From: a virus
Length of the DNA stretch: 48,543 nt
IMG/VR virus record: IMGVR_UViG_3300036046_000009
Span: 1-48,543 of that record
Direction: 5' to 3' (one strand)
Both the position numbers and the translations under genes were made by a program. Positions 9,993-45,471 of this stretch are shown here, in pieces. The notes beneath the pieces were generated by a model. That model had not been told where the DNA came from. It worked only from the letters and a program-made list of their open reading frames with translations, and did no database searches. Numbering within the stretch: the first letter of the stretch is position 1; each line of letters opens with the position of its first letter.

Positions 9993-10815
9993 CGTAGTTG
10001 ACCAAGTTGTTGCTCCAAGGCTTCCCGCCCGTGCCGGACGTCCCTTTGCAGTCTTCGACTGTCTTAGAGCAGCCTGGATAGATGCTGATTGTGTCTCCGA
10101 TGGCGAAGTCGAACGGCATGTCCAATTGGAGCGTCACTTGCTTCGTCGCTCCAACGTAGTCTTTCACCTCACCGGCAATGCCGGAGTTGGCACCTCCAGT
10201 CCACAAGACCTTCCCGTAGTTGAAGAAGTCGTTTGCCGTAGACGAGAGGCCCGATGCTCTGAAGACACGCCGTTGCGTGTCCACTTGCGTGATTGTCACG
10301 CTTTGCGTGATCGGAGCGAGATTGATCTGGCAGTTAGCGTCTCCAAGATCCCAGCGACAGTTCCGAGCGTAGATGTCTCCGATGGGGACGCGGAGCCATC
10401 TGGAGATGTCCGTTACCTTCGCGTTCCAGCGGCTCCCGTCAAACGTGATCTCCTCGATCCAATACGTGACGCCGTACAGAGGACCAGCGAAAGGGAATCG
10501 CCAATCGACAGTGAGCTCTTCGACCTTGGCTTCTCGATAGCGTCCGGCCCGTAGGTCTTCTTGCTTGATTGCATCAGAGTTGATGATCCCGATGCACTCA
10601 ACGTTCCGTGTCTGCAGACCCTCTTGTCGCTGCCGTGCAGACGCTTGAAATCCACCGGCAGCAAGGTACGTCCCATCGTTAGGAATCACGATGGGAGCAT
10701 TGTGATCGGTGAACCGCATCACCGTGCCATCGACACGGGTGACTTTCCAGCAAGTGCAAAGTCTGTGCGACTTCGTGTCTACAAGAGACTTGATAGGCGG
10801 GCTGAACGTTCTCAC
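9934..10815 (-). CDS. Tail hub protein, DUF2163/BR0599 family
   Basis: A 293-residue protein of the DUF2163/BR0599 type (equivalent to GTA gp13). The N-terminal part has the expected DGTVMRFTDHN and VECIGIINSDAI blocks. The C-terminus carries the family signature with Cys residues and the closing motif YPGCSKTVEDCKGT...YGGFPTIPG. In the related Rhodobacter GTA hub, conserved Cys residues have been linked to metal or Fe-S binding; here NCRWDLGDANC, GCSK and EDCKG supply comparable Cys. It should form the hub between the distal tail ring and the tip. Its start overlaps the GT2-methyltransferase stop by ATGA-type coupling. Confidence 0.85.
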   Translation of the reverse strand: MRTFSPPIKSLVDTKSHRLCTCWKVTRVDGTVMRFTDHNAPIVIPNDGTYLAAGGFQASARQRQEGLQTRNVECIGIINSDAIKQEDLRAGRYREAKVEELTVDWRFPFAGPLYGVTYWIEEITFDGSRWNAKVTDISRWLRVPIGDIYARNCRWDLGDANCQINLAPITQSVTITQVDTQRRVFRASGLSSTANDFFNYGKVLWTGGANSGIAGEVKDYVGATKQVTLQLDMPFDFAIGDTISIYPGCSKTVEDCKGTSGTGGKPWSNNLVNYGGFPTIPGTDKVLQTPNTK

Positions 10816-12197
10816 GCAAGAACTCCCCGACCAAGAGTAGGACCAGCGTAGTCAGGACAGGACGGCAACACTTCCCAAGTAAATCCCTTCTTGCCTTCCT
10901 CGTACCAGTCTCGCTGGAAGTCATGAAGGAACACCGTGCCTCCTGGCTTGAGCATCCGCTTCGCCATCTGAAGACACTTGTTGCGAAGGACACCGTCCAC
11001 CAAGATCACGTCAAACTGTTGCTCGGCGAAAGCAAGGAGGTACGGGTTCTGAAGATCGGGAAGATCGCAGAGCTCCTCGCCCGGAGTTGCAACGGGGATG
11101 TGTCCGATCCGCACGAAAGGAACGCCGACACGGTGAGCCCATTTCTCATCGTGCTCCAAAGACGTGAGATCAATACCTTGCTCTCGGAACCAATGCGTGC
11201 TTCCTCCAGCTCCCCATTCAAACATCCTTCCGCCGGCGGGAACCGCCGCCGCGATTGCCTTTCTGTGCTCCAATCCCATCAGACACTCCAGCGGTTCGGA
11301 TGGCTTGGGTCTTACCGTCCTAGACGTCAGCTTCCACCGAACGCCGCCCGCTTGACTGATCGGGATAGCAGAGTCAGGGAGCTTCCTGCCTGCCTGCATG
11401 ATGTTTCTGTACTTGTAGATGTGGTCCCTCAGAGCCAAGAACCGTGCTCTGGCTTCCGGAGCCGCGACGGCAAGAGCTTGCTCCTCGTTGAAAGTCTCGA
11501 GATTCGTCGCGAGGCAAACAAGACGGTTGAAACTCTCGTGCCACGTCCCTAGTTTGTTGCCGACTGGCACCCTGTCGAATCTGTGAGCGACAACTAGCCC
11601 ATTGATTCGGCGGACTTCGTAGCCGCGTATCCACGCTCTCATCGAGATGTCCTGCTCTTCGTATCCCCATCCGTAGAGGAACGCGTTCATCCCGCCAAGA
11701 GCTTCCCACACTGCCCGCGGATAGAAGTAGCACGCTCCAAGAAGACACGGCACCGTGTCGATCTCGTCTACCTTTCCTCGCACGCACCACGAGACGTCGT
11801 AGGAGACGTTGTCTTTGAACTCCGCTCCTGCCGCCATGAAAGGACCGCGATCGAATCCCTTGCACGCACAGCAGAAGATGCTCCGAGGATGCTTCTGCAC
11901 GGCGTCGATGGCAAGATCGAGCCAATAGTTCGGCATCCGCATATGCGAATCCAAGACTACGATCAAGTCTCCTTTCGCTTGAGACGCAACTGCCCGCTTA
12001 GACTGTCCGGGTCCGAGTTGCGTCTCGGAGCGAAAGAGTGTCGCTGCCGGGATTCGATTAGGAGCGATGGGCGGATCAGAGCAATCGTCCCAGACGAGAA
12101 TCTCGTAGGGACGGATGGTGCTAGCATCCGCTAGTGCCACCGTTGCTTCCAAGTCCGGGCCTTCGTTGTGTGACGCAATAACTACTGAGACTTTCAT
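10812..12197 (-). CDS. GT2 glycosyltransferase-methyltransferase fusion
   Basis: A 461-residue two-domain protein. Residues 1-240 are a GT-A family 2 glycosyltransferase: MKVSVVIASHNEG at the N-terminus, VVLDSHMRMP with the metal-binding DxH (Asp83-His85), and LYGWGYEEQDISMRAWI at 174-190. DxH and the GWGxEExDIS block are what polypeptide GalNAc-transferases have (their WGGENLEIS block). Residues 320-430 are a class I methyltransferase-like domain with FEWGAGGST (326-334), LEHDEKW and FDVILVDG (395-402). The gene is inside the tail-tip module, one small gene downstream of a poly-Thr protein. The context suggests O-glycosylation of that stalk; substrate and donor are inference. Confidence 0.8.
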   Translation of the reverse strand: MKVSVVIASHNEGPDLEATVALADASTIRPYEILVWDDCSDPPIAPNRIPAATLFRSETQLGPGQSKRAVASQAKGDLIVVLDSHMRMPNYWLDLAIDAVQKHPRSIFCCACKGFDRGPFMAAGAEFKDNVSYDVSWCVRGKVDEIDTVPCLLGACYFYPRAVWEALGGMNAFLYGWGYEEQDISMRAWIRGYEVRRINGLVVAHRFDRVPVGNKLGTWHESFNRLVCLATNLETFNEEQALAVAAPEARARFLALRDHIYKYRNIMQAGRKLPDSAIPISQAGGVRWKLTSRTVRPKPSEPLECLMGLEHRKAIAAAVPAGGRMFEWGAGGSTHWFREQGIDLTSLEHDEKWAHRVGVPFVRIGHIPVATPGEELCDLPDLQNPYLLAFAEQQFDVILVDGVLRNKCLQMAKRMLKPGGTVFLHDFQRDWYEEGKKGFTWEVLPSCPDYAGPTLGRGVLA

Positions 12198-30003: not shown

Positions 30004-32076
30004 CTAGGCAGGGTAACAGGCCCCTCCGCTACAGGCAGGCTCTGGCTGTACCGCCGTCCGGCGGTACGGCACGCTGCCATAGTCAACCGTCTTCCAGTTG
30101 GACACGATGTCCGTCCACCGTGCCATGTCTGCATCAGACACGATCGCTTCCTGCGGAGCGTGAGCGTACGTCTTGTCACCGACGGGACTGATGAACGAGA
30201 TGGCTCGGATGTCGTGATGATTGTTGTAGAGCCACACCAGGATCGCGTCCGGGTCATCCAACGTCACCGTCGCACTGACATTGTGACAGACACCCGGATC
30301 GTAGACCCACTTCTTGTAGACGCGGCGGATGAGTTCGAGATGCTCCACGCCGGACATCTTGACCTTGCGTCCACGCATCGGGAAGACGAGAGCCCAGTCA
30401 CCGTTCGGCTTCTCCTCGACGGCACGCGGGTTAGCCTCCCTGAACGCTTGAGCCAGAGGCTCATTCGGGTTAGCCGTGACGCGACGGAAGTAGTACTCCG
30501 CGTGCGGAGGATGGATGCCCGCGGAGCACTCCAGCAGGAGGCTCGCCGTCCCGCTTGGCTTGACGGTGCAGATTCGCAGACTGCGAGGGATGTTGAGATA
30601 GTGACACCACTCGTCTGCCATCACGCGTGCAGCCTTCTTACCGTCCTCGAGCCAGTCGTCTGGGATCTCCTGATCACAGATGCCGGTGAGACTGACACCG
30701 AGAAGACGCTCGTCCCTTGCGTTGCCGTTCGGGACGTCCCAGTCCATGTAGAGAGCCTGAAGGCATCCCAAGATGGTTGCACTCTCAACCGCGACGATGA
30801 ACTCGTCCTTCGTCTGGCAGCGGGGAACGCAGACCTCTGTGAGATTGCATCCGGCGAAGTCGGGACTGGTCTCCGGAAGTTGGAAGCCGATCTCGGCACA
30901 CGGGTTGCATCCGTGATTGCGAGTCTCGCCAATGAAGAATCCCGGCTCCCCGTACTCCATTGCACAGGCGACGAGACGAGCGAAGTCCGGCAGGTCCTCA
31001 CCACGGACGTAGTGGACGCTGTTGTTCGCGTTGGCAAGGTAGGGACGCTCCTTCCACCACTCGCCCGTCTTGCACGTCCACATCTCGTCGTCTTCCTTCG
31101 AGAACAACGCAATGAGACTGCTGCGACGGATGCCTCCGCTGAGAACGGCGTCCGCCATGCGAGTCATGATGCAGTGCCACTCGAACGGACGCAGATGCCT
31201 GCCAAGCGGGATCATCCCACGGACCGCTTCGAGCATGTCGCGAAGCGGCAGATGCCCGGGAGCGAGACCACCAGACGTCACCAGCTCCGACCCTTCGGGA
31301 CGGATAAGGTGATAGTCGAACTCGACGTAGCATCCGGTGACGAAGTACGACTCAAGCAAGACCTCAAGAGCGGTCCGCCATCCCCGGATCGAGTCCTCGA
31401 CGGTGTGATGCAAGACACGCTTCCGATTGATCCGTGCCACCGTTGCAGGAATCTGATCGACGTGACAGCGTTGAATCGAGTAGCCGACTCCTGCTCCACA
31501 GAGAAGCATCCACAGAGACTCCGCCGGCATCCACCATCTGTTGAGATGGGTGTAGCAGCAATTGAACATCCGCTCGTTGACGAACTCGATCGCCTTCCCA
31601 CCGAACTGGAGGCTCCGCATCGACGGCAGGACACGCATCGCTTCGAGATCGCGGCGTGCCTGCTCTGGGAACTTGTTGATGCGGTTCTCGTGCATCGTGA
31701 TGACACGCTCGAGAGCCTCCGGGTACGTCTCGTAGCGTCCGTTCCGCTCACGAGCGTACTTTGCCGCCTGGATGTATCTGCTGAGCTCTCCCTCCACGGG
31801 TGCGGGAAGGTCTCGACGCTGACGCTTCCGCTGATCGCGGAAGAGGATGAACTTCCTCGCTTCATCAGTGAAGCCACGATCCATCATGAGTGCCTCGAGA
31901 CGATCGGAGATGGTCTCGACGGAGAGCTCCGTCTCGAGAGACGCGTCCGCATTGTGGCGGATAGTGAGAGCCATCGCCGTAGCATGTTCGATGGGCACTC
32001 CAGCCGCTACTGCGGCCCTCTCGATCCGGGCCTGATCCCACTGCACCTTCCGTCCATCACGCTTGATTACCAGCAT
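30004..32076 (-). CDS. Class II (B12-dependent) ribonucleotide reductase
   Basis: A 690-residue monomeric reductase making deoxynucleotides. Residues 1-90 are an ATP-cone (LVIKRDGRKVQWDQARIERA). The active site has Cys173/174 in FNCCYTHLN, the finger loop GCNPCAEIGF (Cys393, Glu395) and FAGCNLTEV with the partner Cys. SGGIRRSSLIALF and SFISPV are also typical. The end CSGGAC (682-687) supplies the redox-relay Cys pair, as in the Lactobacillus RTPR. No small subunit or radical-generating partner is needed or present. It overlaps the GT-B gene by 10 bases, so it shares a transcript with the modification island. Confidence 0.92.
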   Translation of the reverse strand: MLVIKRDGRKVQWDQARIERAAVAAGVPIEHATAMALTIRHNADASLETELSVETISDRLEALMMDRGFTDEARKFILFRDQRKRQRRDLPAPVEGELSRYIQAAKYARERNGRYETYPEALERVITMHENRINKFPEQARRDLEAMRVLPSMRSLQFGGKAIEFVNERMFNCCYTHLNRWWMPAESLWMLLCGAGVGYSIQRCHVDQIPATVARINRKRVLHHTVEDSIRGWRTALEVLLESYFVTGCYVEFDYHLIRPEGSELVTSGGLAPGHLPLRDMLEAVRGMIPLGRHLRPFEWHCIMTRMADAVLSGGIRRSSLIALFSKEDDEMWTCKTGEWWKERPYLANANNSVHYVRGEDLPDFARLVACAMEYGEPGFFIGETRNHGCNPCAEIGFQLPETSPDFAGCNLTEVCVPRCQTKDEFIVAVESATILGCLQALYMDWDVPNGNARDERLLGVSLTGICDQEIPDDWLEDGKKAARVMADEWCHYLNIPRSLRICTVKPSGTASLLLECSAGIHPPHAEYYFRRVTANPNEPLAQAFREANPRAVEEKPNGDWALVFPMRGRKVKMSGVEHLELIRRVYKKWVYDPGVCHNVSATVTLDDPDAILVWLYNNHHDIRAISFISPVGDKTYAHAPQEAIVSDADMARWTDIVSNWKTVDYGSVPYRRTAVQPEPACSGGACYPA

Positions 32077-32966
32077 GTCAGTCCTTCCATTGTTGAATGC
32101 TTCTTCAGAAAGTCCCAGTTGAGACGTTGCATCTCCATGAGTTCCTCATCGGAGCGGCTCACCAGGACAGACGCCAGATCAGTCTTGTCCGCAGACAAGT
32201 GTTGAAACTCACACTGCCCCCAATCGTGGTGGCAGATCGGGATGCACCCTGCATCCATGGCTTCGAGCCAAGAGTACTGCGTCCTGCCGCGATCGCCTCC
32301 GGGCATCTTGGTGAAGTCGACGCAGAAGCGAGAGTTCAACAAGAGCTCGTACGGGTCATCGAATCCTTCCGGCAGCGGGATGCCGAACGTCGGCTGGAGC
32401 TGCCACTTCCAGTAGGCACGATTTACGCTGCCGCGAATGAGACACGGCACACCGCTTGCCAAGATGTCCGCCTGCCGCTTGTTGAAGTCGATCCTTGCAT
32501 GGCAGATGAGATTCGTCGTGCGTCCGGCAAGCGGAGTGTTCTGGCAGCGACGGACGTACGGGTGCCGCCAGAGCTGAGCGTGCGGATACATCTGCTGCAC
32601 TTGCCTGCTGATCGCGATCAACTTGAACCGAGGAGACTTCAGACACGGGTTGTCTTCGAAGCCGCGGAAGTCGTGAACCGTGATCAGAGCTCCCATCTCG
32701 CGAAGAGCGTCGAGTCTGTAGTCCTCGTCATTCGTCACAGACGTGACGATGATCTGTGGGCGTTGCTGCATCTCCCACTCTCGTCTGAAGTCGACGAGAT
32801 CGAGGACTTGGCAAGTGCCTCCGTGGGCACACCTCTCGGTCTTTCGGCGATCTCCGATCCGGTAGATCTGGCTCCCTGCGATCTCGGCAAGATGCTGTCC
32901 GTAGGTGAAGGAGCCTCCGAGGAGGTTGAACGCACGCTTGCCGACCAAGGTAGTCATGTATCTCAT
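32067..32966 (-). CDS. GT-B fold glycosyltransferase
   Basis: A 299-residue protein. Its C-terminal part has the pattern of GT-B glycosyltransferases: a donor-side Rossmann region (LICHARIDFNKRQADIL), then TQYSWLEAMDAGCIPICHHD near 235-255, where the conserved Glu normally binds the sugar nucleotide. The N-terminal half lacks a clear signature. I chose the ATG overlapping the HAD stop (AAATGA). It is the last gene of the modification island and could extend or add a sugar on the modified base. Its acceptor cannot be read from sequence. Confidence 0.7.
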   Translation of the reverse strand: MRYMTTLVGKRAFNLLGGSFTYGQHLAEIAGSQIYRIGDRRKTERCAHGGTCQVLDLVDFRREWEMQQRPQIIVTSVTNDEDYRLDALREMGALITVHDFRGFEDNPCLKSPRFKLIAISRQVQQMYPHAQLWRHPYVRRCQNTPLAGRTTNLICHARIDFNKRQADILASGVPCLIRGSVNRAYWKWQLQPTFGIPLPEGFDDPYELLLNSRFCVDFTKMPGGDRGRTQYSWLEAMDAGCIPICHHDWGQCEFQHLSADKTDLASVLVSRSDEELMEMQRLNWDFLKKHSTMEGLTCW

Positions 32967-33460
32967 TTGGGCTTCCAATCAAGAGCTGCGAGACCTGCGA
33001 CACGTGCAGCAGAAGTAACCTCGGGATCGTCGTCGATGACGAGACCGCTCTTGCCCTTCCAGAAACTGTACGCCCGCTTAGGAGCGGACGTCTCCTTGAC
33101 CTTGTGATGGAGCCAAGAGGGGAGCTTCTGAAGCGTGGACTCTTCGCTGCCCGAAGTGATGATCCAAGCGTTCTGGTTGTCCAGAAGCCTGAAGAGCTCC
33201 TGATTGACACGGTTCTGGAGGTCCTTCCACGTCGGAAGCACCCGTGCTTCCAAGATCGCTTGCAGCGTCGGCTCGCTGTAGATCTCGCCGAGACGTCCTG
33301 GCCACGTCCGCTGCCAGAGCATGTCGTCGAAGAACCATCCGGGACACTCCGTCCCGGTCACCTTCTCAATTGCCGTACAGAAGGAAGCTCGCACAACGCT
33401 GTGAGAATCGATAAGGGTCCCATCGAGGTCGATGAAGATTGAGAAGTTGCTTGCACTCAT
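32963..33460 (-). CDS. HAD-superfamily phosphatase
   Basis: A 165-residue protein with all HAD motifs: motif I FIDLDGTLID (Asp10 and Asp12 with the ATG at 33460), motif II WIITSGSEE, a Lys in the KAYSFWKGKSG-like stretch, and motif IV GLVIDDDPE. A short cap lies between motifs I and II. It would hydrolyse a phosphate ester; with the adjacent kinase and nucleotidyltransferase it could convert a sugar bisphosphate to a sugar 1-phosphate, as GmhB does in the heptose pathway. Its first 95 bases overlap the kinase C-terminus in another frame. Confidence 0.85.
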   Translation of the reverse strand: MSASNFSIFIDLDGTLIDSHSVVRASFCTAIEKVTGTECPGWFFDDMLWQRTWPGRLGEIYSEPTLQAILEARVLPTWKDLQNRVNQELFRLLDNQNAWIITSGSEESTLQKLPSWLHHKVKETSAPKRAYSFWKGKSGLVIDDDPEVTSAARVAGLAALDWKPK

Positions 33461-34073
33461 GGATGACAAACTCTGCGTAGAAGGACGGATAGTGACGGCT
33501 CAGACGGAGCCAATGCGAGAGCAGGAGTTGAAGATGGAGACGAGTGTCGAGGTTGCGGAAGTGTTCCACCGGCGTCTCAATGATCGGCCAGCCACGACGC
33601 CAGACCTCCCAATGGGTGCAGAAGGACTGCAGGAGCTTCGCCTCGTCCAACTCCTGCACGAGCATGCCGCGAGGATCGCCGGGATCGATGATGCGGAGGC
33701 CGTGTCCTCGCTCCCAGACGAGGTTCTCCAGCGTGCAATCCCCGTGGACAACGCACGCTGCACGAGCCCAATCATCCAACTCGAACTCGCCCCAGATTCC
33801 ACGGACGTACTTCACGTACTTTGCCGGGTCTGAGCGTGGGAAGTCCAAGTTGCGGGACCAGACCATCTCGTGGAGCCGCGTGCGGAGCAGCATGAGATCC
33901 GCAAGATGGTATCCCGGGGTGAACTTGTAGACGATCCCGTCCTCCTCTTCAACGTCCTTCTGGAATCCGTGGGGAAGGATCCGGGGATCGCAGTGACGCC
34001 AGAGTTGCCATCCAATCGGCTTGCGGATCAGATCGCCAGAGGTCGGAGAATCCTTCGGGAGTTCCAATGTCAT
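33366..34073 (-). CDS. APH-family small-molecule kinase
   Basis: A 235-residue kinase of the aminoglycoside/choline kinase fold. The catalytic loop is VVHGDCTLENLVW (109-120, with HGD and Asn117 expected to act in catalysis and metal binding), and the metal-binding loop is IIDPGDPRG (128-136). ELDEAKLLQSF follows, as in sugar or choline kinases of capsule loci. The N-lobe is short. Between a nucleotidyltransferase and a HAD phosphatase, it most likely phosphorylates a sugar or small alcohol to be activated as an NDP derivative. It overlaps the upstream gene by 125 bases and the downstream gene by 95. Confidence 0.8.
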   Translation of the reverse strand: MTLELPKDSPTSGDLIRKPIGWQLWRHCDPRILPHGFQKDVEEEDGIVYKFTPGYHLADLMLLRTRLHEMVWSRNLDFPRSDPAKYVKYVRGIWGEFELDDWARAACVVHGDCTLENLVWERGHGLRIIDPGDPRGMLVQELDEAKLLQSFCTHWEVWRRGWPIIETPVEHFRNLDTRLHLQLLLSHWLRLSRHYPSFYAEFVIHECKQLLNLHRPRWDPYRFSQRCASFLLYGN

Positions 34074-34602
34074 GCCAGCCTCGACTTTCGACGAAGAACG
34101 GACGCACACTGGCGTCCTGGAAAATGACGTGGGCCTGATCGCCGCGTGCCTCTCGCAACGTCTTCGCTGAGAGGCACCACGGAGAGATCAAGGCCCGACA
34201 AGACTTGTCGTACTCGTTGTCCCGATGCCATCCTCGGCTGCTCCAATGAGCCAGACCGGCGATCGGGAACTCCGCGACGCAGGCAGTGTCCGGTGTCAGG
34301 GGAACGTCAAGGAGCTGCGGAGGGTAGACGTTGTCGGCAAGGTAGATCATGACAGGATCATCTCCCTTGACGCACGCTTTGAGAGCTCCGCAGAGCTCCG
34401 GCTCGAACTGGTGGAGAGTCCGCCATCCCATCCGCTTGCAAACGGCGTTGATGGTTCCAAACTCCCGGCACACAATCTCGGTGTCCTTGCCGAGTTGATC
34501 GACGAGACGATGAAGAGCACTCCGGCCGTCGTCGTCTACCATGAGCAGAGGCTTCATCGGCATCCGTGTCGCGAGTCCGCCGGCGAGGATTACCTTTCGC
34601 AC
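33949..34602 (-). CDS. Sugar-phosphate nucleotidyltransferase
   Basis: A 217-residue NTP-transferase. The signature GGLATRMPMKPLL (residues 8-20) is the nucleotide-binding loop of glucose-1-phosphate thymidylyltransferases and relatives. VMIYLADNVYPP provides the metal-binding Asp, and ESRGWHDIGTPEGFSDLW is the classical late motif that contacts the sugar. It starts with GTG after a strong GAGGAG site, overlapping the TAGT stop by 13 bases. It should make an NDP-sugar, or an NDP-alcohol as LicC does, for the glycosyltransferases beside it. Confidence 0.87.
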   Translation of the reverse strand: MRKVILAGGLATRMPMKPLLMVDDDGRSALHRLVDQLGKDTEIVCREFGTINAVCKRMGWRTLHQFEPELCGALKACVKGDDPVMIYLADNVYPPQLLDVPLTPDTACVAEFPIAGLAHWSSRGWHRDNEYDKSCRALISPWCLSAKTLREARGDQAHVIFQDASVRPFFVESRGWHDIGTPEGFSDLWRSDPQADWMATLASLRSPDPSPRIPEGR

Positions 34603-35384
34603 AAGTCACGCTCCTCCCATGCCTTCCGCCAGTTGACGCGGAGGTCTGGTGCGGTCGCCCCGTCCCATTGACGCCATCCAGCCGCCGACTTGTCGACGGC
34701 CTCACAGAACGCACCGTGCTCCTGAAGGAACGCTTCGCGACACTCGCGAAGAGCTGCCTCTGTGCGGTAGACCGAGACGCCACCGGCAGCATTCGTTTCG
34801 CTTGTGTCTGTGACGTACCAGTTGGAGACGGCGTTCGGGTATCCACGCCGCAGCAAGGACAGCGTCACGTGGAAGTCTTCCCAGAAGGGATACTTGTCGA
34901 AGCGGATGCCTTCATGCTGCAGGATGTCCGTACGGACGCCGAAGGACCGCATCTGGCGGTAGTTGTATCGCCAGTGACGATCTTGGAGTTCCTGATTGAA
35001 GCCGCGTGCTCCGAGCCCGACCATTGCTCGCTCGTCCATTGCTTGGTTCATCAGAACCATCGCTGCCGCGATGTCGTCGGGCGTAGCCTGTTGGAGCTTT
35101 GCATTGGTACGGAACGCCCAATCGTCGACGCGACGGCAGAAGCGAAGATCGTCGTCGAAGAAGAACAAGCGATCGTACTGGCTACTGAGCTCGTCCACTG
35201 CCGCTTGCCGGAACTTCGGAGCTCCGATCTCGTCCATGAGGATCATGGGACAGCCGAACTCGGCGTACTTCTCAGCCTCCGAACGGTGTACAACGAGCGT
35301 TGTCATCTCCTTCAGCTCTTGCGGGAAAGCCAAGAACGTGTTCATGCGGTGGGATCGTCCAAGTGATGGGATCACAATTCGCAT
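34590..35384 (-). CDS. TAGT-like GT-A glycosyltransferase (DNA base)
   Basis: A 264-residue protein. The opening MRIVIPSLGRSHRMNTF and the following VHRSEAEKYAEF match my memory of TET-associated glycosyltransferases (TAGT), which modify 5-hydroxymethylated bases in phage DNA. The donor site DxD is in FFFDDDLRF (77-79), and YPFWEDFHVTLSLLRRG near 165-181 looks like the catalytic acceptor block. No TET/JBP oxygenase is present in the window, so the hydroxymethyl acceptor would have to come from a modified dNTP. An ATG with GGAGTAGGAA upstream is a secure start. Confidence 0.75.
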   Translation of the reverse strand: MRIVIPSLGRSHRMNTFLAFPQELKEMTTLVVHRSEAEKYAEFGCPMILMDEIGAPKFRQAAVDELSSQYDRLFFFDDDLRFCRRVDDWAFRTNAKLQQATPDDIAAAMVLMNQAMDERAMVGLGARGFNQELQDRHWRYNYRQMRSFGVRTDILQHEGIRFDKYPFWEDFHVTLSLLRRGYPNAVSNWYVTDTSETNAAGGVSVYRTEAALRECREAFLQEHGAFCEAVDKSAAGWRQWDGATAPDLRVNWRKAWEERDLCER

Positions 35385-35387
35385 TTC

Positions 35388-35723
35388 CTACTCCATGTTC
35401 GAAGACACTGGTGGACCGAATCCCTGGAGCACGTCTTCGATTGTGGTGCTGCCAGCGATGAGACAATGCAGAGAGTTAGGGGCTCCCAGACAACCCGCCA
35501 CGAAGGCCTCCACGCGGAGCCATCCCGTTCTTCCGTCTGGAAGCAAGAAAATGATGTTGTCCGCGATCATCGTGAACGGAATGCTCAACCAGAGTCGCAC
35601 CGTCCCGTTGTGGGACAGATAGACGTCCACGCGAATCGAGGAGGGATGTATGGAGACGTCCGTCCTTGATGAACGCCTTCGTGGTCTTCCACCCGTGGGA
35701 TGTGAGTCGGCGGACTTTGGCAT
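35388..35723 (-). CDS. Hypothetical protein in the modification island
   Basis: A 111-residue protein starting MPKSADSHPTGGRPRRRSS (an earlier TTG overlapping the upstream stop is also possible). The first 30 residues are basic and likely disordered. The rest looks like a beta-rich domain (VDVYLSHNGTVRLWLSIPF, MIADNIIFLLPDG). A small DNA-binding or accessory factor would fit, but nothing diagnostic is present. It sits between the helical-domain protein and the TAGT gene, with 3 bases to the latter. Confidence 0.55.
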   Translation of the reverse strand: MPKSADSHPTGGRPRRRSSRTDVSIHPSSIRVDVYLSHNGTVRLWLSIPFTMIADNIIFLLPDGRTGWLRVEAFVAGCLGAPNSLHCLIAGSTTIEDVLQGFGPPVSSNME

Positions 35724-35740
35724 GATGTGAGACTGCTTTC

Positions 35741-36667
35741 TCAAGAGGCGTGATGAGTCTTACGATCTGCATAGCGACTTCTCGTCTTTCCTTGTCCAAG
35801 ACGGACACGTTCGTACTTGTCGAACTCGCAGAGACAATGCTCGATCTCGCGGAGTTCGAACGGTGGCCACAAAGGATCATCGTCCGGCTTGACGGCAAGC
35901 GGATGATGTCTGCGGACCACCAGCGGGAGCTCCTTCTTGGCACGAGCCCAGAGCAGGATCATCGTGCCGACATTGGGCTCGTAGCCGAGACGGATCATTC
36001 CTCGGCGGCATCCGGGACCTACGTTTGCCCATTCGTAGCAATCGACTGGCTCGAAGAGCACACTCCAACGCAGATCGCTTGCCATCTCGTAGGCAATGAA
36101 CGGACCGCAGTAGCGGAAGAGCCTGAGCTCCTCAAACGCGGTGCGGATGGACATTGACTCGTAGATGGTCCTTGCCAGCGTCTCACGCTCTTCCCAGACA
36201 CGTTGGATCACAGGGATGTGAGCCTCGTGCTTAGGAGTAAGCGTGTCTCCTCCGTTGGTCATGTGGGCACCAGTGTAGAGCTGGAGCCCTCTCCTGTAAC
36301 GGTAGCGGATGTAGGAGTAGAGCGTATCCGGGGTGGACGAGAACCCGTACTCCTTAGCGTGGATGTCCAGGTTGAACATCCTGTACCAGAACGTGTTCCA
36401 CACGATCAGTCCGGCAGTCTTCCAGTCTGGAGTCCGCCGGCGACTAACGTCCCAAAGATCAACGTGCCGTTCCTCCATCTTGCGAAGAGCGATCGTCCCG
36501 CGATCGAGCTCTCGGAACACGTTGGTGAACTTGTACTCGTGCAGGATCGGGTCCGTCGTCCAAGGACGTGGCAGTCCCTTGTCACGCTTGCACCAGATCT
36601 CGTGACGCTTGCCCATCCAGGCGAAGAAGTCTTCTACGCGACTTGATCCGGGTTTGATTGGGTCCAC
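35741..36667 (-). CDS. 5-hmdU DNA kinase helical-domain protein (aGPT-Pplase-like)
   Basis: A protein of about 308 residues. The stretch VEDFFAWMGKRHEIW, GLPRPWTTDPILHEYKFTN and VFRELDRGT (residues 11-60) is the family hallmark of the 5-hmdU DNA kinase helical domain, also called alpha-glutamyl/putrescinyl thymine pyrophosphorylase, from phages with hypermodified thymine such as SP10 and phiW-14. The rest (HAKEYGFSSTPDTL, GGDTLTPKHEAH, GCRRGMIRLG) is consistent. No P-loop is present, so ATP binding must come from another protein, perhaps the kinase at 43462. The GTG at 36667 is my choice; longer forms lack a ribosome site. It likely recognises or activates the modified base in DNA. Confidence 0.75.
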   Translation of the reverse strand: MDPIKPGSSRVEDFFAWMGKRHEIWCKRDKGLPRPWTTDPILHEYKFTNVFRELDRGTIALRKMEERHVDLWDVSRRRTPDWKTAGLIVWNTFWYRMFNLDIHAKEYGFSSTPDTLYSYIRYRYRRGLQLYTGAHMTNGGDTLTPKHEAHIPVIQRVWEERETLARTIYESMSIRTAFEELRLFRYCGPFIAYEMASDLRWSVLFEPVDCYEWANVGPGCRRGMIRLGYEPNVGTMILLWARAKKELPLVVRRHHPLAVKPDDDPLWPPFELREIEHCLCEFDKYERVRLGQGKTRSRYADRKTHHAS

Positions 36668-36756
36668 TTGAGAAGTCCCCAGAGGAGGTAGAGAAAGAGG
36701 GCTGCCGCGAACAGATACCAAGAACGCTGGAACAGGACGCCGACGAGAGTTGTCAC
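36634..36756 (-). CDS. Tiny membrane protein, GTG start
   Basis: A 40-residue protein. I place the start at a GTG overlapping the upstream stop (GTGA), the same coupling used twice nearby. Nearly the whole chain is hydrophobic (LVGVLF, then WYLFAAALFLYLLWGLLKW), giving one membrane helix and a short polar tail. A longer form from an ATG at 36840 is possible. It could be a superinfection-exclusion or lysis-control peptide, but no function can be assigned. Confidence 0.45.
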   Translation of the reverse strand: MTTLVGVLFQRSWYLFAAALFLYLLWGLLKWTQSNPDQVA

Positions 36757-37136
36757 TCCACAAAGGGCGAGACAGACTCCCCGCAGGAGTGCAAATTCAC
36801 AACGGACACGATGCGTAGTACGACTTTGCATTTGGAACACTTTCCTTCGTAGAAGATCTCATGGACTTTGACGGTTCGGAGCTCCGTGACAGTGGAGCAG
36901 ACACAGATCTCAACGGGAGCCGGCACAGACGCTGGTGCTTGCGGATTGCTGATTGCCTTCAGCAGCTCTGTCTCTGGGAAAGTCGGCCCGTACCGCTCCA
37001 TCAGACAATCGAGACAGGGCAACGTCAAACTCTCCCTGAAGTTCCCGTTCCTGATGTGACCGAGTCCTGGAGCGAAGACAAAGCGGATGTCGTCCGTGCG
37101 GTAACTGCCGGGAGCGAGTGGAATGCAGTAGGTCAT
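36753..37136 (-). CDS. Cys-cluster protein, paralogue B
   Basis: A 127-residue protein starting MTYCIPLAPGSYRTDDIRF, its ATG overlapping the upstream stop (ATGA). It has CLDCLMERYG, then CVCSTVTELR, and FYEGKCSKCKVVLRIVSVV near the end, so two CxxC pairs that may bind zinc. The last block is clearly related to the upstream gene (FYEGVCGRCKKTLRVVSAV). The pair are tandem duplicates. Function unknown; a zinc-dependent nucleic acid or regulator role is possible. Confidence 0.65.
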   Translation of the reverse strand: MTYCIPLAPGSYRTDDIRFVFAPGLGHIRNGNFRESLTLPCLDCLMERYGPTFPETELLKAISNPQAPASVPAPVEICVCSTVTELRTVKVHEIFYEGKCSKCKVVLRIVSVVNLHSCGESVSPFVE

Positions 37137-41106: not shown

Positions 41107-43029
41107 CTAGCGGAGCTTGCCCTCCACGCCGTTGTACGCCTCCTCGGAGCACGCTCCTGCCCAAGACGTAGGGCTGACGCCCAGTCCTACGCGGATCGGG
41201 ACAGAGAAACGTACAAGAGGCGTCTCGCAGATCGAGATGATCCTTTCATGGACAGACGCGTCTAGCAAACGATCAAGAGGACACTCGAAGAGGAACTCGT
41301 CGTGGACGTTGGCAACGATCCTGACACTTGCATCTTCAAGGAACCGATCTGTTGCAAGAGCGACAAAACGATCCTTGATGATGTCCATTGCTCCTCCCTG
41401 GACAATTGAGTTGAACGCTTTGTGAACTGCCTTCAACGGCAAGTGCCTCCGCCTCTTGTAAGCGTTGAAGACCCATCCTCTCCGCTTGCAGACGTTTGCC
41501 GCCTCAACGGAGACACGCTTGATGCCGGGCATCCGTTCGTGGTAGGACGCGTAGATGTACGCGGCTCTTCGTTCGCACTCCGCCTCAATCTCCTCTTGCG
41601 TGAAGGACGGATGCTCCTCGCAGACCTCCGTGAGGATGGCAGGGTCACCAAGAAGCATTTGTAGCACCCTACGCTTCCCGGCTCCGAAGCCGACACCGAA
41701 GTTGATGAACTTTGCCTTCTTCCGCATCCCCTTCGTGACGCCTTCCTTTGGGACGCCGTACATGAGGGACGCGGTGAGAGTGTGGAAGTCTGTGTCCGGA
41801 TCATTGACGTACGCGTCGATGACGTCTTGATCGCCAGCGTAGTGTGCGATCAGTCGGAACTCGATCTGAGAGTAGTCGCACGAGATGAAGCCGAAGCCTG
41901 GACGAGGATGTATCAGGAGCTTGGAGCGGGAGTTCTGTTGCTGGATGTTCGGATCGCGGCAAGACATGCGTCCGGTCCGCACCAGTTGATTGTAGAACGG
42001 GTGGATCACGTCCTCGGAGTCCCGCAGCTCTTGGAAGGGGACAAGAAAGAGCCCGTTGTACTGAGACTCTACGCGGTACTTCCTGATCGCACGCACCAGA
42101 GCCAAGAGCCGCTTGTTCCCGCGGACGGCGGGGAACTCCTCGTACATAGCCAGTGCCCGCTTGTTGAACGTAGGCTTACCAGTCACGTCGTGGTAAGCGA
42201 GCACGGGTAGATCGTACTTGACAACGAGCGTCTCGTAGATCCATTGTGGGCTATTAGAGAACTCTTCGCCGGCGAGTTGCGAGATGCGTGTCCCCAAGTC
42301 GATCAGGAGCTTGATCGTCCTCAGTTGCTCCTTCTTGACCTCTTGCACGTCTACGCGGAACCCGTGCATCTCCATCTCGTGCAAGACGGAGGTGAGTTGG
42401 ATCTCCCTCTTGATCAGCTCTTGCATGTCTTCGGGGAGCTCCCGCTGCAAGTGCCGGTAGAGAAGTCTGTTGCCGAGAACGTCCTCGCAAGCGTACTCCC
42501 CGAGGACGCTTTGCGGGCAGTCGGCAAAGTCTTCGGACTTGACACGTGCGAGATAGGCGATCCGCTTCTCCTCGCCCTCCATTGCAAGGCCAAGCCATTC
42601 TCGGCACAGAGCCTTGAGACTGTGTCCGATCCGGTCCGTGTCTAGCATCTTCGCCAGCGTCAGAGTGTCGACGAGACGCCGATTTGCCTTTGCTCCCGTT
42701 TCTCGCCGCGTGAAGACGGCGTCGAACTTGACGTTGTGATTGATCCAGTCCCCGGAGCCCGTAACAAGATCGCAGAGCCAGCGTCTGAATGGCTCGATCT
42801 CCACAGACGGTCCGAAAGTGTTATGCCGGACAGGAACGTAGTACGCGTCTGCATGATCGTCTGCTGTGATCGCCACTCCGCAGATCTGGTCCTTCCACGG
42901 AAAGCCTCCGGCACGCTTCGGAGTGCCGGAGCGTGTCTCAAGGTCGAGAAAGATCTCCCTCGCTCCCTTGAAGTCGGGAAGCTCAGAGGCCTCGTCGATT
43001 AGGACACTGTTTTCAGAGAGGCGTAGCAT
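41107..43029 (-). CDS. Family A DNA polymerase
   Basis: A 640-residue replicative polymerase with 3'-5' exonuclease. Exo I is FLDLETRSG (Asp29, Glu31). Polymerase motif A is CDYSQIEFRLI, motif B GMRKKAKFINFGVGFGAG (with Phe at the position corresponding to Phe762 of E. coli Pol I), and motif C ANVHDEFLF. There is no 5'-3' exonuclease domain, as in T7-like polymerases. I start at the ATG at 43029; its first 31 bases overlap the deaminase gene. It would copy DNA with the modified dNTPs made by its upstream neighbours. Confidence 0.9.
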   Translation of the reverse strand: MLRLSENSVLIDEASELPDFKGAREIFLDLETRSGTPKRAGGFPWKDQICGVAITADDHADAYYVPVRHNTFGPSVEIEPFRRWLCDLVTGSGDWINHNVKFDAVFTRRETGAKANRRLVDTLTLAKMLDTDRIGHSLKALCREWLGLAMEGEEKRIAYLARVKSEDFADCPQSVLGEYACEDVLGNRLLYRHLQRELPEDMQELIKREIQLTSVLHEMEMHGFRVDVQEVKKEQLRTIKLLIDLGTRISQLAGEEFSNSPQWIYETLVVKYDLPVLAYHDVTGKPTFNKRALAMYEEFPAVRGNKRLLALVRAIRKYRVESQYNGLFLVPFQELRDSEDVIHPFYNQLVRTGRMSCRDPNIQQQNSRSKLLIHPRPGFGFISCDYSQIEFRLIAHYAGDQDVIDAYVNDPDTDFHTLTASLMYGVPKEGVTKGMRKKAKFINFGVGFGAGKRRVLQMLLGDPAILTEVCEEHPSFTQEEIEAECERRAAYIYASYHERMPGIKRVSVEAANVCKRRGWVFNAYKRRRHLPLKAVHKAFNSIVQGGAMDIIKDRFVALATDRFLEDASVRIVANVHDEFLFECPLDRLLDASVHERIISICETPLVRFSVPIRVGLGVSPTSWAGACSEEAYNGVEGKLR

Positions 43030-43475
43030 GAGAGGATCCCAGCGAAGATCGGAGCAGCGAGTTCCCACACTTCGCCCTCTTGAAGGACGAAGATGCCTGC
43101 ATGCGTCAGCCATTGGACGCCGCGTGGATCATGCGTCGTGAAGGACGAATACAAGACGGCGATGACGCTTTGTGACGCGATGATTGCATTGGCACAATTT
43201 GTGCAGGGCGAATAGCCAACGCAAAGGATGCCTTTCTGCGTGCGTGGGACCTTGAGAAGCAGAGCCACCTCTGCGTGGATGCAACCGCAGTTCCCGATCT
43301 CACCAGAGCACGGGCCTCCGACCGGTCCGTTCATTGCTGACGCAAGTTCCACAAGACGCCCGTCTTGCAAGCCGCAGAGAACGGCACGGACTTTCTTCCG
43401 CTTGCATCCGCACGGAGTCTCGTCCATCTTCATGACGTCGTGATACGACGCCCACAATGTGTCACGAGAGTGCAT
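42999..43475 (-). CDS. dCMP/cytidine deaminase
   Basis: A 158-residue zinc deaminase. The active site has CIHAEVALLL (His-Ala-Glu) and GYSPCTNCANAII (PCxxC), the classical zinc ligands and proton shuttle. A CGCKRKK segment and other Cys lie in the N-terminal part. It should convert dCMP to dUMP for pyrimidine synthesis. It lies between the kinase and polymerase genes with short overlaps on both sides, part of the nucleotide-pool operon. Confidence 0.88.
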   Translation of the reverse strand: MHSRDTLWASYHDVMKMDETPCGCKRKKVRAVLCGLQDGRLVELASAMNGPVGGPCSGEIGNCGCIHAEVALLLKVPRTQKGILCVGYSPCTNCANAIIASQSVIAVLYSSFTTHDPRGVQWLTHAGIFVLQEGEVWELAAPIFAGILSCYASLKTVS

Positions 43476-43986
43476 CTAGACGCATCCTCCATTTGGAGAC
43501 GATCTGCCCAAGCCCGATAGCTCCGCAGAAGACAATCTGCTCACTATGCGGAACCGTGACGTCGATGCAGATGTCGGCGTACGGCACGAGAGTGTTGAAG
43601 CGAATCGCAGCCTGAGTCAAAGCGTGCTCGTCAAACATCTCGTCCTTCGGATTCGTTCTGAGATGCCGGACGTAGGCCTCTATGTTGGAGGCGTGGACGA
43701 GCACGATCAATCCACCAAGAGCACGCACCCACGACGAGACGATCTCAAGACGAGGGATCGTCAAGACGTCCCTGTGATACGCAATCCCACCGAAGTGGAA
43801 TCGGTCTTGGACTACTGGCACGTCCCTCTCCAGATAGTTCCGGCGAATGATTTCCTTGTACCCTTGGAAGAAATCGAAGTCCTCCGTAGGACGCGTCATG
43901 TGGGCGTAGTGGGCTCCCATCACCCTGCAGACTTCTCTCGCCAGCGTGGTCTTGCCTACGTTGTCTGGTCCTTCAATCACTAACAT
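43462..43986 (-). CDS. Deoxynucleotide (thymidylate-like) kinase
   Basis: A 174-residue P-loop kinase: IEGPDNVGKTTLA (residues 4-16) is the thymidylate kinase type Walker A. VVQDRFHFGGIAYH holds the DR-type substrate motif and lid residues follow. The length is typical of dNMP kinases. Its ATG overlaps the end of the synthase-like gene by 14 bases. In this context it could phosphorylate a hydroxymethyl-dNMP, as T4 gp1 does. Alternatively it is the ATP-binding partner of the helical-domain protein at 35741. Confidence 0.85.
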   Translation of the reverse strand: MLVIEGPDNVGKTTLAREVCRVMGAHYAHMTRPTEDFDFFQGYKEIIRRNYLERDVPVVQDRFHFGGIAYHRDVLTIPRLEIVSSWVRALGGLIVLVHASNIEAYVRHLRTNPKDEMFDEHALTQAAIRFNTLVPYADICIDVTVPHSEQIVFCGAIGLGQIVSKWRMRLDALS

Positions 43987-44962
43987 TGTGGTTCTCCCAA
44001 TGACGGCGGAGTGTGGGATTGAGAAGTCTCTTTGCCGCTCTGATACCTACGTCCTTCGTCGCGGCCATGAGACACAAATTGTGACCCATCTGAGCAGGAG
44101 TGCCGGCAGAAGAAAGTTCGCCGGCACATCCGGTATTCTTGCGGTTGTAGTCCTCCAGATCTACTGCCGCTTGAATCCGCTCAAGGACGTGATGCGGGTT
44201 GTAGGGCACGTAGGACATCGGAGCCACGTCGAACGTTCCTGTGTGGACTCCCGCAAGAGCACGTTGGTAGTGCTTCTCATAGAGATGCATCGAGCCAACT
44301 TGGTGATGGTAGAAGCCGAGATCGACGTCCAGCATGTTCGCTACCAGCATCTGAAGGTGGCAGAAGCAGAACACGTCGTACGGCAAACCTAGCCAAGCGT
44401 CGTTGCTCCGCATCGTGGTGATCAGATTGAGCTTCCCATTCCGCAGAAGGAACTGCAGACTGAGCGTGCAAGGGATGTCTTTGCGATTCTTCGCCCGCAC
44501 GTGGATCAAGTCCGATGCTCTGAAGAGCGGAAGGACAGCCTGCCGCGAGTTCGGGTCAGCCTTGAGAGCATCCACAAGTGTCGACAGAGGCGTCATCTTG
44601 CTCAGCGTGGTCGTTGCGGATCTCCACTGCCAGTCAAGGTCAGTCTTACCGAAGATTCGTCCTCCGTACGCACCGTACGCTTCTCCGTCGTCGGCGAACT
44701 GAGCGTACTGCGGAGCGTAGTGGACGATCCGGTCTATTGTCAGCTCACCGGACATGTACCAAAGGAACTCGCCGGCAGCGTAAGACATGCTGAGACGCCG
44801 CTCGGGGTTGAACATGAAGCAGAAGGTAGGGTCCATGAGACGTCCGCTCCAGCCGACGATCTCCTTGGACGGTCCTGCTCTTGAATGAATGTCCTCCCCA
44901 TCTCCAAGAATCGAATCACAGACGTCGACCCACATCTCGTCTACATAATCGTAAGTGTTCAT
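43973..44962 (-). CDS. Thymidylate synthase-family enzyme, likely dCMP-type
   Basis: A 329-residue member of the thymidylate synthase family. The catalytic Cys is Cys165 in RKDIPCTLSLQF; RSNDAWLGLPYDVF supplies Arg185, Ser186 and Asp188. Counting from the catalytic Cys, Asp196 (LPYD) falls exactly where E. coli synthase has Asn177, the residue that reads uracil. Asp at this site is known from T4 dCMP hydroxymethylase, and Asn-to-Asp mutants of synthase accept dCMP. So dCMP hydroxymethylase or methylase activity is more likely than dTMP synthesis. It is coupled by ATGA to the MazG-like gene. Confidence 0.85.
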   Translation of the reverse strand: MNTYDYVDEMWVDVCDSILGDGEDIHSRAGPSKEIVGWSGRLMDPTFCFMFNPERRLSMSYAAGEFLWYMSGELTIDRIVHYAPQYAQFADDGEAYGAYGGRIFGKTDLDWQWRSATTTLSKMTPLSTLVDALKADPNSRQAVLPLFRASDLIHVRAKNRKDIPCTLSLQFLLRNGKLNLITTMRSNDAWLGLPYDVFCFCHLQMLVANMLDVDLGFYHHQVGSMHLYEKHYQRALAGVHTGTFDVAPMSYVPYNPHHVLERIQAAVDLEDYNRKNTGCAGELSSAGTPAQMGHNLCLMAATKDVGIRAAKRLLNPTLRRHWENHNVSD

Positions 44963-45471
44963 TGCTGTTGCACCTTGTTCTTGTCGGTCAGTCTGGTTGC
45001 ACGTGCGAGAATGCCTTTGATGTCAGGCGGCGAGTAGTTCGGTCCCTTGTCCCGCATCCGAAGATTGTCCGCGGTGCGGACTTGCTTGGTCATGTTGGAG
45101 CGGTGCGTGTCGATGAAGAGCTCCTTCCATGGAAGCCCGTACGTCTCAGCGAGTCCGATGACAACGTAGAGCAGGTCTGCAACGCCGTCTGCAAACCCGA
45201 TCGTGTGCCCGCAGAGAGCGGCGGAGATGAGCTCTCCCAGCTCCTCAAGGATTAGATGCAGCCGATACGAGAAAAGATGCTCTTGTCCAGGCTCCTCGCC
45301 ATAGACTGCCAGGAGCTTCGCCTTGTCTCGGCAGCGGCGGACATACTCGCTGTCCATGTCTCGCCAGAAGATTGGTTGGTCCAGCGGGAAGGAATGCTTC
45401 TCGTGGAATGCTCTTGGCCCGTCGAGAGCGATGAGCAGACCAGAGTTTGACAAGGTGCTGTCGTCAATCAT
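44959..45471 (-). CDS. MazG-like nucleotide pyrophosphohydrolase
   Basis: A 170-residue all-alpha NTP pyrophosphatase. The metal-binding acidic residues are in LILEELGELISA (Glu76, Glu77, Glu80) and FADGVADLLYVVIGLAETYG (Asp95, Asp99). It is closest to the MazG/dUTPase-dCTPase class by pattern. With the dCMP-type synthase and a kinase it could clear dCTP or dUTP and feed monophosphate substrate, like T4 gp56. Overlaps link it to the primase and the synthase-like gene. Confidence 0.85.
   Translation of the reverse strand: MIDDSTLSNSGLLIALDGPRAFHEKHSFPLDQPIFWRDMDSEYVRRCRDKAKLLAVYGEEPGQEHLFSYRLHLILEELGELISAALCGHTIGFADGVADLLYVVIGLAETYGLPWKELFIDTHRSNMTKQVRTADNLRMRDKGPNYSPPDIKGILARATRLTDKNKVQQQ

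Follow-up and report, generated by a model that had tools for sequence, protein, structure and literature searches.

Whether a gene cluster in a viral genome record attaches a sugar to DNA, how that sugar is supplied and which base carries it are the questions raised by the island at positions 32067-36763 of IMG/VR record IMGVR_UViG_3300036046_000009, of which the whole analysed stretch of 48,543 nucleotides is hereafter called the window. The island is real: as initially annotated, its genes are co-oriented, here on the minus strand, and mostly overlap, and all seven reported frames are present. A ribonucleotide reductase gene (RNR, 30004-32076, minus strand; phrog_367, 4e-93) adjoins it as the next gene, in an order that is kept in relatives and is syntenic in L012, another phage contig. 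With a probability of roughly 0.6, the phage makes sugar-decorated 5-hydroxymethylcytosine (5hmC) DNA.

Two products of the island are securely identified by family profiles. Specifically, the gene at 35741-36763 codes for a helical-domain protein (HMUDK_hel, PF18723; E = 5e-42, 144.6 bits against a cut-off of 25), with a probable GTG start at 36667 that had already been proposed and that fits the alignment of homologues from about residue 40, and the gene at 34590-35384 codes for a TAGT, a GT-A glycosyltransferase (PF20691, 47.8 bits against the Pfam cut-off of 27.5, 2e-12; phrog_842, 3e-31) bearing the DDD motif in FFFDDDLRF at residue 74, with the DD conserved. The AF2 model of the helical-domain protein (pLDDT 83.7) resembles the helical domains of the SP10, phiRSL1 and phiW-14 5-hmdU kinase proteins. 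A DNA-glycosylase fold, an idea drawn from a thymine pyrophosphorylase annotation and a GPG motif, is unsupported, as the model has no PDB match with E < 0.001. The intervening 118-aa frame (35388-35744) is doubtful and may not be a gene: profile searches give no family match, codon usage gives no coding signal, and the slot is filled in L012 by an unrelated protein.

Three further genes of the island may supply the activated sugar. The predicted sugar-1-phosphate nucleotidyltransferase (NTase, 33949-34602) has a weak Pfam match (7e-5, under the cut-off), but its five-sequence profile matches RmlA at 3e-9, a protein of the 6-deoxy-mannoheptose pathway at 5e-7 and a CTP:inositol-1-P cytidylyltransferase; NDP-heptose, initially noted as what such an enzyme set makes in bacteria, is at most a candidate product here. 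The APH-fold sugar kinase (33366-34109), whose annotated start is probably too early, and the HAD phosphatase (32963-33469) likewise have weak Pfam matches, but both retain complete catalytic motifs that recur in their homologues: HGDCTLEN, IDPGDPRG and ELDEAKLLQS in the kinase, and DLDGT, TSGS, K and DDD, also kept in L012, in the phosphatase. Single-sequence PDB searches with these three proteins, the TAGT and the glycosyltransferase candidate discussed below gave nothing useful, a PDB search with the APH profile gave chance-level matches only, and phage-record searches with the NTase and the glycosyltransferase candidate gave no match; single-protein IMG/VR scans with the NTase and the TAGT were also empty, and therefore alignments were used instead.

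These family profiles connect the three genes to RB69, a phage in which, as in NP, another Mosigvirus, cytosine is arabinosylated, and whose DNA arabinose has been shown chemically (PMC6024577, PMC13390438). The NTase profile matches RB69 ORF053c (2e-9), the APH profile matches ORF052c (2.6e-7), and the HAD protein shares with ORF051c its slot and a DxD motif (weak profile E of 0.011), so that homologous NTase and kinase and a HAD-like protein stand in matching order in both phages, each of which also has a TS-family cytosine enzyme. Conversely, the NTase and the kinase form one protein in RB69 and are separate here, the TAGT is present here, and the RB69-type SIS arabinose-5-phosphate isomerase (PF01380) was not found in the window.

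The last gene of the island (32067-32978) is a candidate second glycosyltransferase. It is coding by codon usage, and its only family match is a sub-threshold one to exostosin GT47 (0.003); single-sequence AF2 gave no fold (pLDDT 36.5), and hhalign comparisons with the family that fills the corresponding slot elsewhere, RB69 ORF003c and T4 beta-GT revealed no relationship, so that its assignment as a putative GT-B enzyme is left unproven. In L012, L103, L109 and L115, the slot after the TAGT is occupied by an unrelated transferase-like family. The initial gene identities are thus secure for the TAGT and the HMUDK_hel protein and weak for the GT-B enzyme; for the NTase, kinase and phosphatase, the motifs are complete and profile matches range from weak to moderate.

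The identity of the base is predicted from precursor genes at 42999-45471, also on the minus strand, which the initial annotation did not include. Among them, the gene at 43973-44962 codes for a predicted dCMP hydroxymethylase of the thymidylate synthase (TS) fold, which ranks a CMP 5-hydroxymethylase first in the PDB (1e-32) and the best TS at 4e-19. Its D196 (in GLPYDVF) occupies the position of T4 Asp179, which governs dCMP/dUMP specificity and at which Asp denotes cytosine specificity (PMC6400193, PMC5175136); D162, three residues before the catalytic C165, corresponds to the hydroxymethylase Asp145 of T4; R140 and S186, in place of Lys133 and Ala176 of MilA, point to a deoxyribose preference; and D188 is also among the key residues. 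The Ser/Thr expected two residues before the active-site Tyr (T4 Ser94) is a Gly here (G97-A98-Y99), and therefore the enzyme is said only to work like a dCMP hydroxymethylase, with provisional membership. It is flanked by a dCMP deaminase (42999-43475; phrog_174, 1e-9), a MazG/PRA-PH-type nucleotide pyrophosphohydrolase that is a candidate dCTPase (44959-45471; phrog_671, 9e-17; PRA-PH, 1.6e-9) and a P-loop nucleotide kinase that is a candidate hmdCMP kinase (43462-43986; Thymidylate_kin, 1.7e-5), whose family profile matches RB69 ORF045 at 6.6e-9 and the M6 5hmdU DNA kinase only at 0.013. Because of the closest PDB match of the TS-like enzyme, its two diagnostic Asp residues and these neighbours, the modified base is most likely cytosine rather than uracil, judging from sequence. 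The initially proposed sugar on a hydroxymethyl pyrimidine is supported as a modification, with the predicted dCMP specificity leading to 5hmC and away from a uracil-type base.

Two other bases have to be weighed. It is unlikely that the phage makes 5-hydroxymethyluracil and hypermodifies its thymine positions as M6, ViI and phiW-14 do (PMC6449724), with the HMUDK_hel protein acting as it does there. This protein is shared with those phages and is about 33-38% identical to those of M6 and Sonora, and in most of the about 70 phage loci in which it adjoins a TAGT and a hydroxymethylase (HMase), the latter is of the Asn (dUMP) type; however, the specificity position is Asp in both the window and L012, dUMP-type enzymes have a one-residue insertion that this TS-like enzyme, being of a distinct type, lacks, and neither the M6 P-loop 5hmdU DNA kinase (gp54) nor the Sonora amino acid:DNA transferase has a significant homologue in the window. 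It is quite improbable, moreover, that the TS-like enzyme produces 5-hydroxy-dCMP and that the sugar is placed directly on the C5 hydroxyl, as in RB69 and NP: RB69 has a TS-like enzyme homologous to this one besides the homologous donor module (PMC13390438), but the window keeps RSND, whose Asp corresponds to the folate-contacting Asp171 of T4, where RB69 has RSQN, and the best PDB match is a CMP hydroxymethylase.

The recurrence of the genes links the island to DNA. The whole order is repeated in one other phage contig, L012, with a TAGT that is 43% identical and an Asp-type HMase, and seven further loci pair an Asp-type HMase with the helical-domain protein and the TAGT, one of them with a UDP-glucose dehydrogenase, an epimerase and an FkbM methyltransferase in between. 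A scan seeded with the APH kinase, in which the HMase played no part in selection, found the APH-HAD-NTase trio in siphophage contigs, with the Asp type in all six contigs where an HMase was found; in phages with an HMase, the trio adjoins RNR or ligase. In another group, of large phages, 11 loci (L200-L210) carry NTase and/or APH genes, with HAD-like genes, beside a TAGT-like gene, and all four loci tested have TET/JBP, which would presumably make the hydroxymethyl group on DNA, whereas here it would be made at the nucleotide stage. Lastly, TAGT lineages follow the HMase type, with 3 changes where shuffles gave 7.8 and none of the 500 came as low, on a tree with long branches and by a shuffle test that does not correct for relatedness. 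That the glycosyltransferase and sugar-nucleotide genes instead alter a surface polysaccharide or a virion protein is very unlikely: bacterial relatives of the APH and NTase proteins do lie in polysaccharide-type loci, and a separate GT2 protein is present in the tail region of the window, but in T6 the TAGT family glycosylates DNA (PMC13216743), and the adjacency to the helical-domain protein and the HMase, the tracking of HMase type and the trio's neighbours all connect the genes to DNA.

The reading of sugar-decorated 5hmC is thus supported by the HMase residues and PDB ranking, the adjacent precursor genes, the RB69 module and these recurrences, and is weakened by the Gly at the T4 Ser94 position, the prevalence of Asn-type HMases beside HMUDK_hel, the missing isomerase, the polysaccharide-type relatives and the long branches; the initial view of a DNA modification island with a glycosyltransferase and its own sugar-nucleotide supply is likewise supported. 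In this pathway, the kinase, phosphatase and NTase would start from a sugar, or its phosphate, taken from the host and activate it as an NDP-sugar, and the TAGT would move its sugar, or a second sugar, onto the hydroxymethyl group of the DNA, to which the 32067-32978 protein might add a further residue; the helical-domain protein may act with the TAGT on DNA, perhaps by recognising or exposing the base, and the modification would likely protect against host nucleases.

Not all of this is new. TET/JBP (PF12851) is indeed absent from the 48.5-kb, possibly incomplete record, as first noted, but a TAGT without TET/JBP, which together with a self-made donor initially seemed undescribed, is known from T2/T6, where a dCMP hydroxymethylase, an alpha-GT and a TAGT yield gentiobiosyl-hmC, and solitary TAGTs occur in 288 of the 753 phage genomes of one survey (PMC13216743). 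Similarly, self-made sugar donors are known or proposed in RB69 and Thanatos (PMC6024577, PMC12838424). In contrast to T2/T6, no alpha-GT or beta-GT is recognised here, and the NDP-sugar genes and the HMUDK_hel partner are present; the novelty lies in the combination. A more tentative proposal, which may well not hold, is that the DNA glycan itself has not yet been described, with a sugar other than glucose or arabinose, its own kinase, phosphatase and NTase, a TAGT and a helical protein acting on 5hmC and a lineage-variable second transferase, relatives differing mainly in the sugar cassette.

The island joins in small siphophages three known pieces, namely T4-like cytosine hydroxymethylation, a TAGT and RB69-type sugar activation, and suggests that the sugar cassette behind phage DNA glycans can be exchanged. 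If true, new modified bases would come with defined enzymes, and it could be asked why a "5hmdU kinase" helical domain accompanies glycosyltransferases in both uracil- and cytosine-type systems.

A nucleotide-precursor operon, overlooked in the initial annotation, lies 8 kb from the island (32067-36763, minus strand) and encodes a pyrophosphohydrolase, a thymidylate synthase (TS)-like enzyme (43973-44962, minus strand), a P-loop kinase and a dCMP deaminase. Against the PDB, the TS-like enzyme matches the CMP 5-hydroxymethylase MilA at 1e-32 and the best thymidylate synthase at only 4e-19. In the T4 enzyme, Asp179 determines the preference for dCMP over dUMP and Asp145 activates water, while deoxyribose is favoured by Arg and Ser replacing MilA Lys133 and Ala176 (PMC6400193, PMC5175136); the window's enzyme carries D196, D162, R140 and S186 at these positions and lacks one signature, with Gly where T4 has Ser94. 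The P-loop kinase resembles RB69 ORF045 more than it does the 5hmdU DNA kinase of M6. Taken together, these residues, the MilA ranking and the kinase resemblance make 5-hydroxymethylcytosine (5hmC) the most likely modified base.

All seven island frames initially proposed are present on the minus strand, the 118-aa one being doubtful as a gene, and the helical-domain protein and the TAGT glycosyltransferase score well above Pfam cut-offs; the TAGT also matches phrog_842, "beta-glucosyl-HMC-alpha-glucosyltransferase". The putative sugar-supply trio of nucleotidyltransferase (NTase), APH-fold kinase and HAD phosphatase falls below the Pfam cut-offs but keeps its catalytic motifs in relatives, and an NTase profile retrieves sugar-1-phosphate nucleotidyltransferases from the PDB. 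The frame read as a GT-B glycosyltransferase (32067-32978) exists, but its GT-B assignment is weak. The 48,543-base IMG/VR record is linear, and therefore possibly incomplete; with tape measure, portal, terminase, DNA polymerase and primase/helicase genes it represents a tailed phage, a siphovirus by appearance, and a DNA-level search of the phage collection with 10 kb around the island returns no close record. Within the tail gene region, 10812-12197 encodes a GT2 glycosyltransferase whose C-terminus weakly resembles a methyltransferase; this protein is probably unrelated to DNA.

The helical protein, modelled from 34 sequences, is all-helical with good confidence (pLDDT 83.7); fold comparison gives significant matches to further phage proteins, the named ones being 5-hmdU-kinase helical proteins (e.g., of SP10 and phiW-14), and none in the PDB. 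The window lacks a P-loop partner of the M6 type, and none was detected in the helical-TAGT loci, so the helical protein is unlikely to be a mere kinase accessory in this setting; it might recognise the base or present it to the TAGT.

Self-made sugar donors for DNA glycosylation, initially suggested to be undescribed in such a combination without TET/JBP, have precedents. RB69 DNA carries arabinose on cytosine, as chemically demonstrated (PMC6024577), with the linkage since revised to a direct C5-O link (PMC13390438), and RB69 ORF053c, 052c and 051c correspond to an NTase, an APH and a HAD-like protein, arranged as in the window and adjoining a TS-family enzyme. Our profiles match them at 2e-9, 2.6e-7 and 0.011, respectively, ORF053c and 052c having been shown to be one protein (PMC6024577). 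Since a sugar kinase and an NTP-transferase of this cluster are listed as likely arabinose suppliers (PMC13390438), such a donor had already been proposed; likewise, in Thanatos a UDP-xylose pyrophosphorylase is tied to the phage's cytosine sugar (PMC12838424). Arabinose is not implied for the window, which has no counterpart of the RB69 isomerase. Nor is a TAGT without TET/JBP novel, being known in T2/T6 and, as solitary TAGTs, in 288 of the 753 phage genomes of one survey (PMC13216743). Pyle et al. 2024, as cited there, report diverse glycans from virus glycosyltransferases and may already cover clusters like the window's.

A TAGT alignment search of IMG/VR yields 236 relatives, 80 of which were kept; in most of these a helical protein and a hydroxymethylase adjoin the TAGT, and nearly all the hydroxymethylases have Asn at the T4 Asp179 position (dUMP type). 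Only one kept locus, L012, holds NTase-APH-HAD genes; it repeats the window's order (ligase, helical protein, a further gene, TAGT, NTase, APH, HAD, a further gene, RNR), and its contig also encodes an Asp-type (dCMP) hydroxymethylase, a kinase and a dCMP deaminase. A scan seeded with Asp-type enzymes adds seven helical protein-TAGT loci (L101, L103, L109, L111, L112, L115, L133). The Asp-type phage TAGTs form three tree groups: the window with L012 and L103 (100/100), L109 with L112 and L115 (100/100), and, unsurely, L101 with L133 (92/55). Hydroxymethylase type changes 3 times on the tree vs 7.8 in shuffles, which, with the long branches and shared ancestry in the tree, is suggestive at most, though in keeping with a TAGT that would act on the hydroxymethylase product. 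A second transferase-like family, one member of which weakly matches Glyco_trans_1_2, is common to L012, L103, L109 and L115 and sits after the TAGT or after the cassette; the window protein in this slot has no sequence relation to it.

Other gene contents accompany these transferases. L109 (11058-16503) places a UDP-glucose dehydrogenase, an NAD-dependent epimerase and an FkbM methyltransferase between HMUDK_hel and TAGT, followed by the second transferase-like gene, and L111 has the same spacing; the L109 genes look like a cassette that would decorate DNA with an oxidised, methylated sugar. In L103 (3920-5943), TAGT is separated from the second transferase-like gene by a radical SAM/SPASM protein and an unassigned 315-aa protein. 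The triad of HMUDK_hel, TAGT and Asn-type hydroxymethylase recurs in 69 loci (most of L013-L091; e.g., L022, 9134-11996) and predicts glycosylated 5-hydroxymethyluracil, a base-J-like modification stated to be unreported in phages as of 2019 (PMC6449724). Separately, Asp-type hydroxymethylases occur with M6 5hmdU DNA kinase homologues in L141, L142, L143, L146, L150, L165 and L169, and three of these loci also hold a TAGT-like gene. Phosphorylation of 5hmC by a base kinase would be new.

An APH-seeded scan, with no selection on hydroxymethylase, gives 27 loci, eight with APH, HAD and NTase. Six of these eight contigs encode a hydroxymethylase, of Asp type in 6/6 (G001, G002, G003, G004, G011, G012; G004 and G012 are near copies), with G011 and G012 the only fully new finds because the APH profile seed came partly from contigs located via their Asp-type enzyme; in the other two, fragments of 26 and 19 kb, no hydroxymethylase was found. 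A TAGT search of G002, G003, G011 and G012 was negative, and the trio can therefore also serve other transferases. In L119 (10790-11853) and L198 (1172-2432), the trio is directly followed by an unassigned protein of 279-294 aa and a cupin-like one, possible sugar-forming steps, and then by a large GT-B-looking protein. L191-L196 and L199 have ~700-aa frames in which one protein is matched by both APH and HAD profiles. Eleven loci (L200-L210; e.g., L200, 6680-10744) form a set of their own, in which NTase and APH accompany a TAGT-like gene; the three examined in full also have a HAD-like gene. No TET/JBP was found in the window's group, and TET/JBP is present in 4/4 of the L200-L210 contigs tested; in these loci, sugar-supply genes accompany the alternative way of making hydroxymethyl bases.
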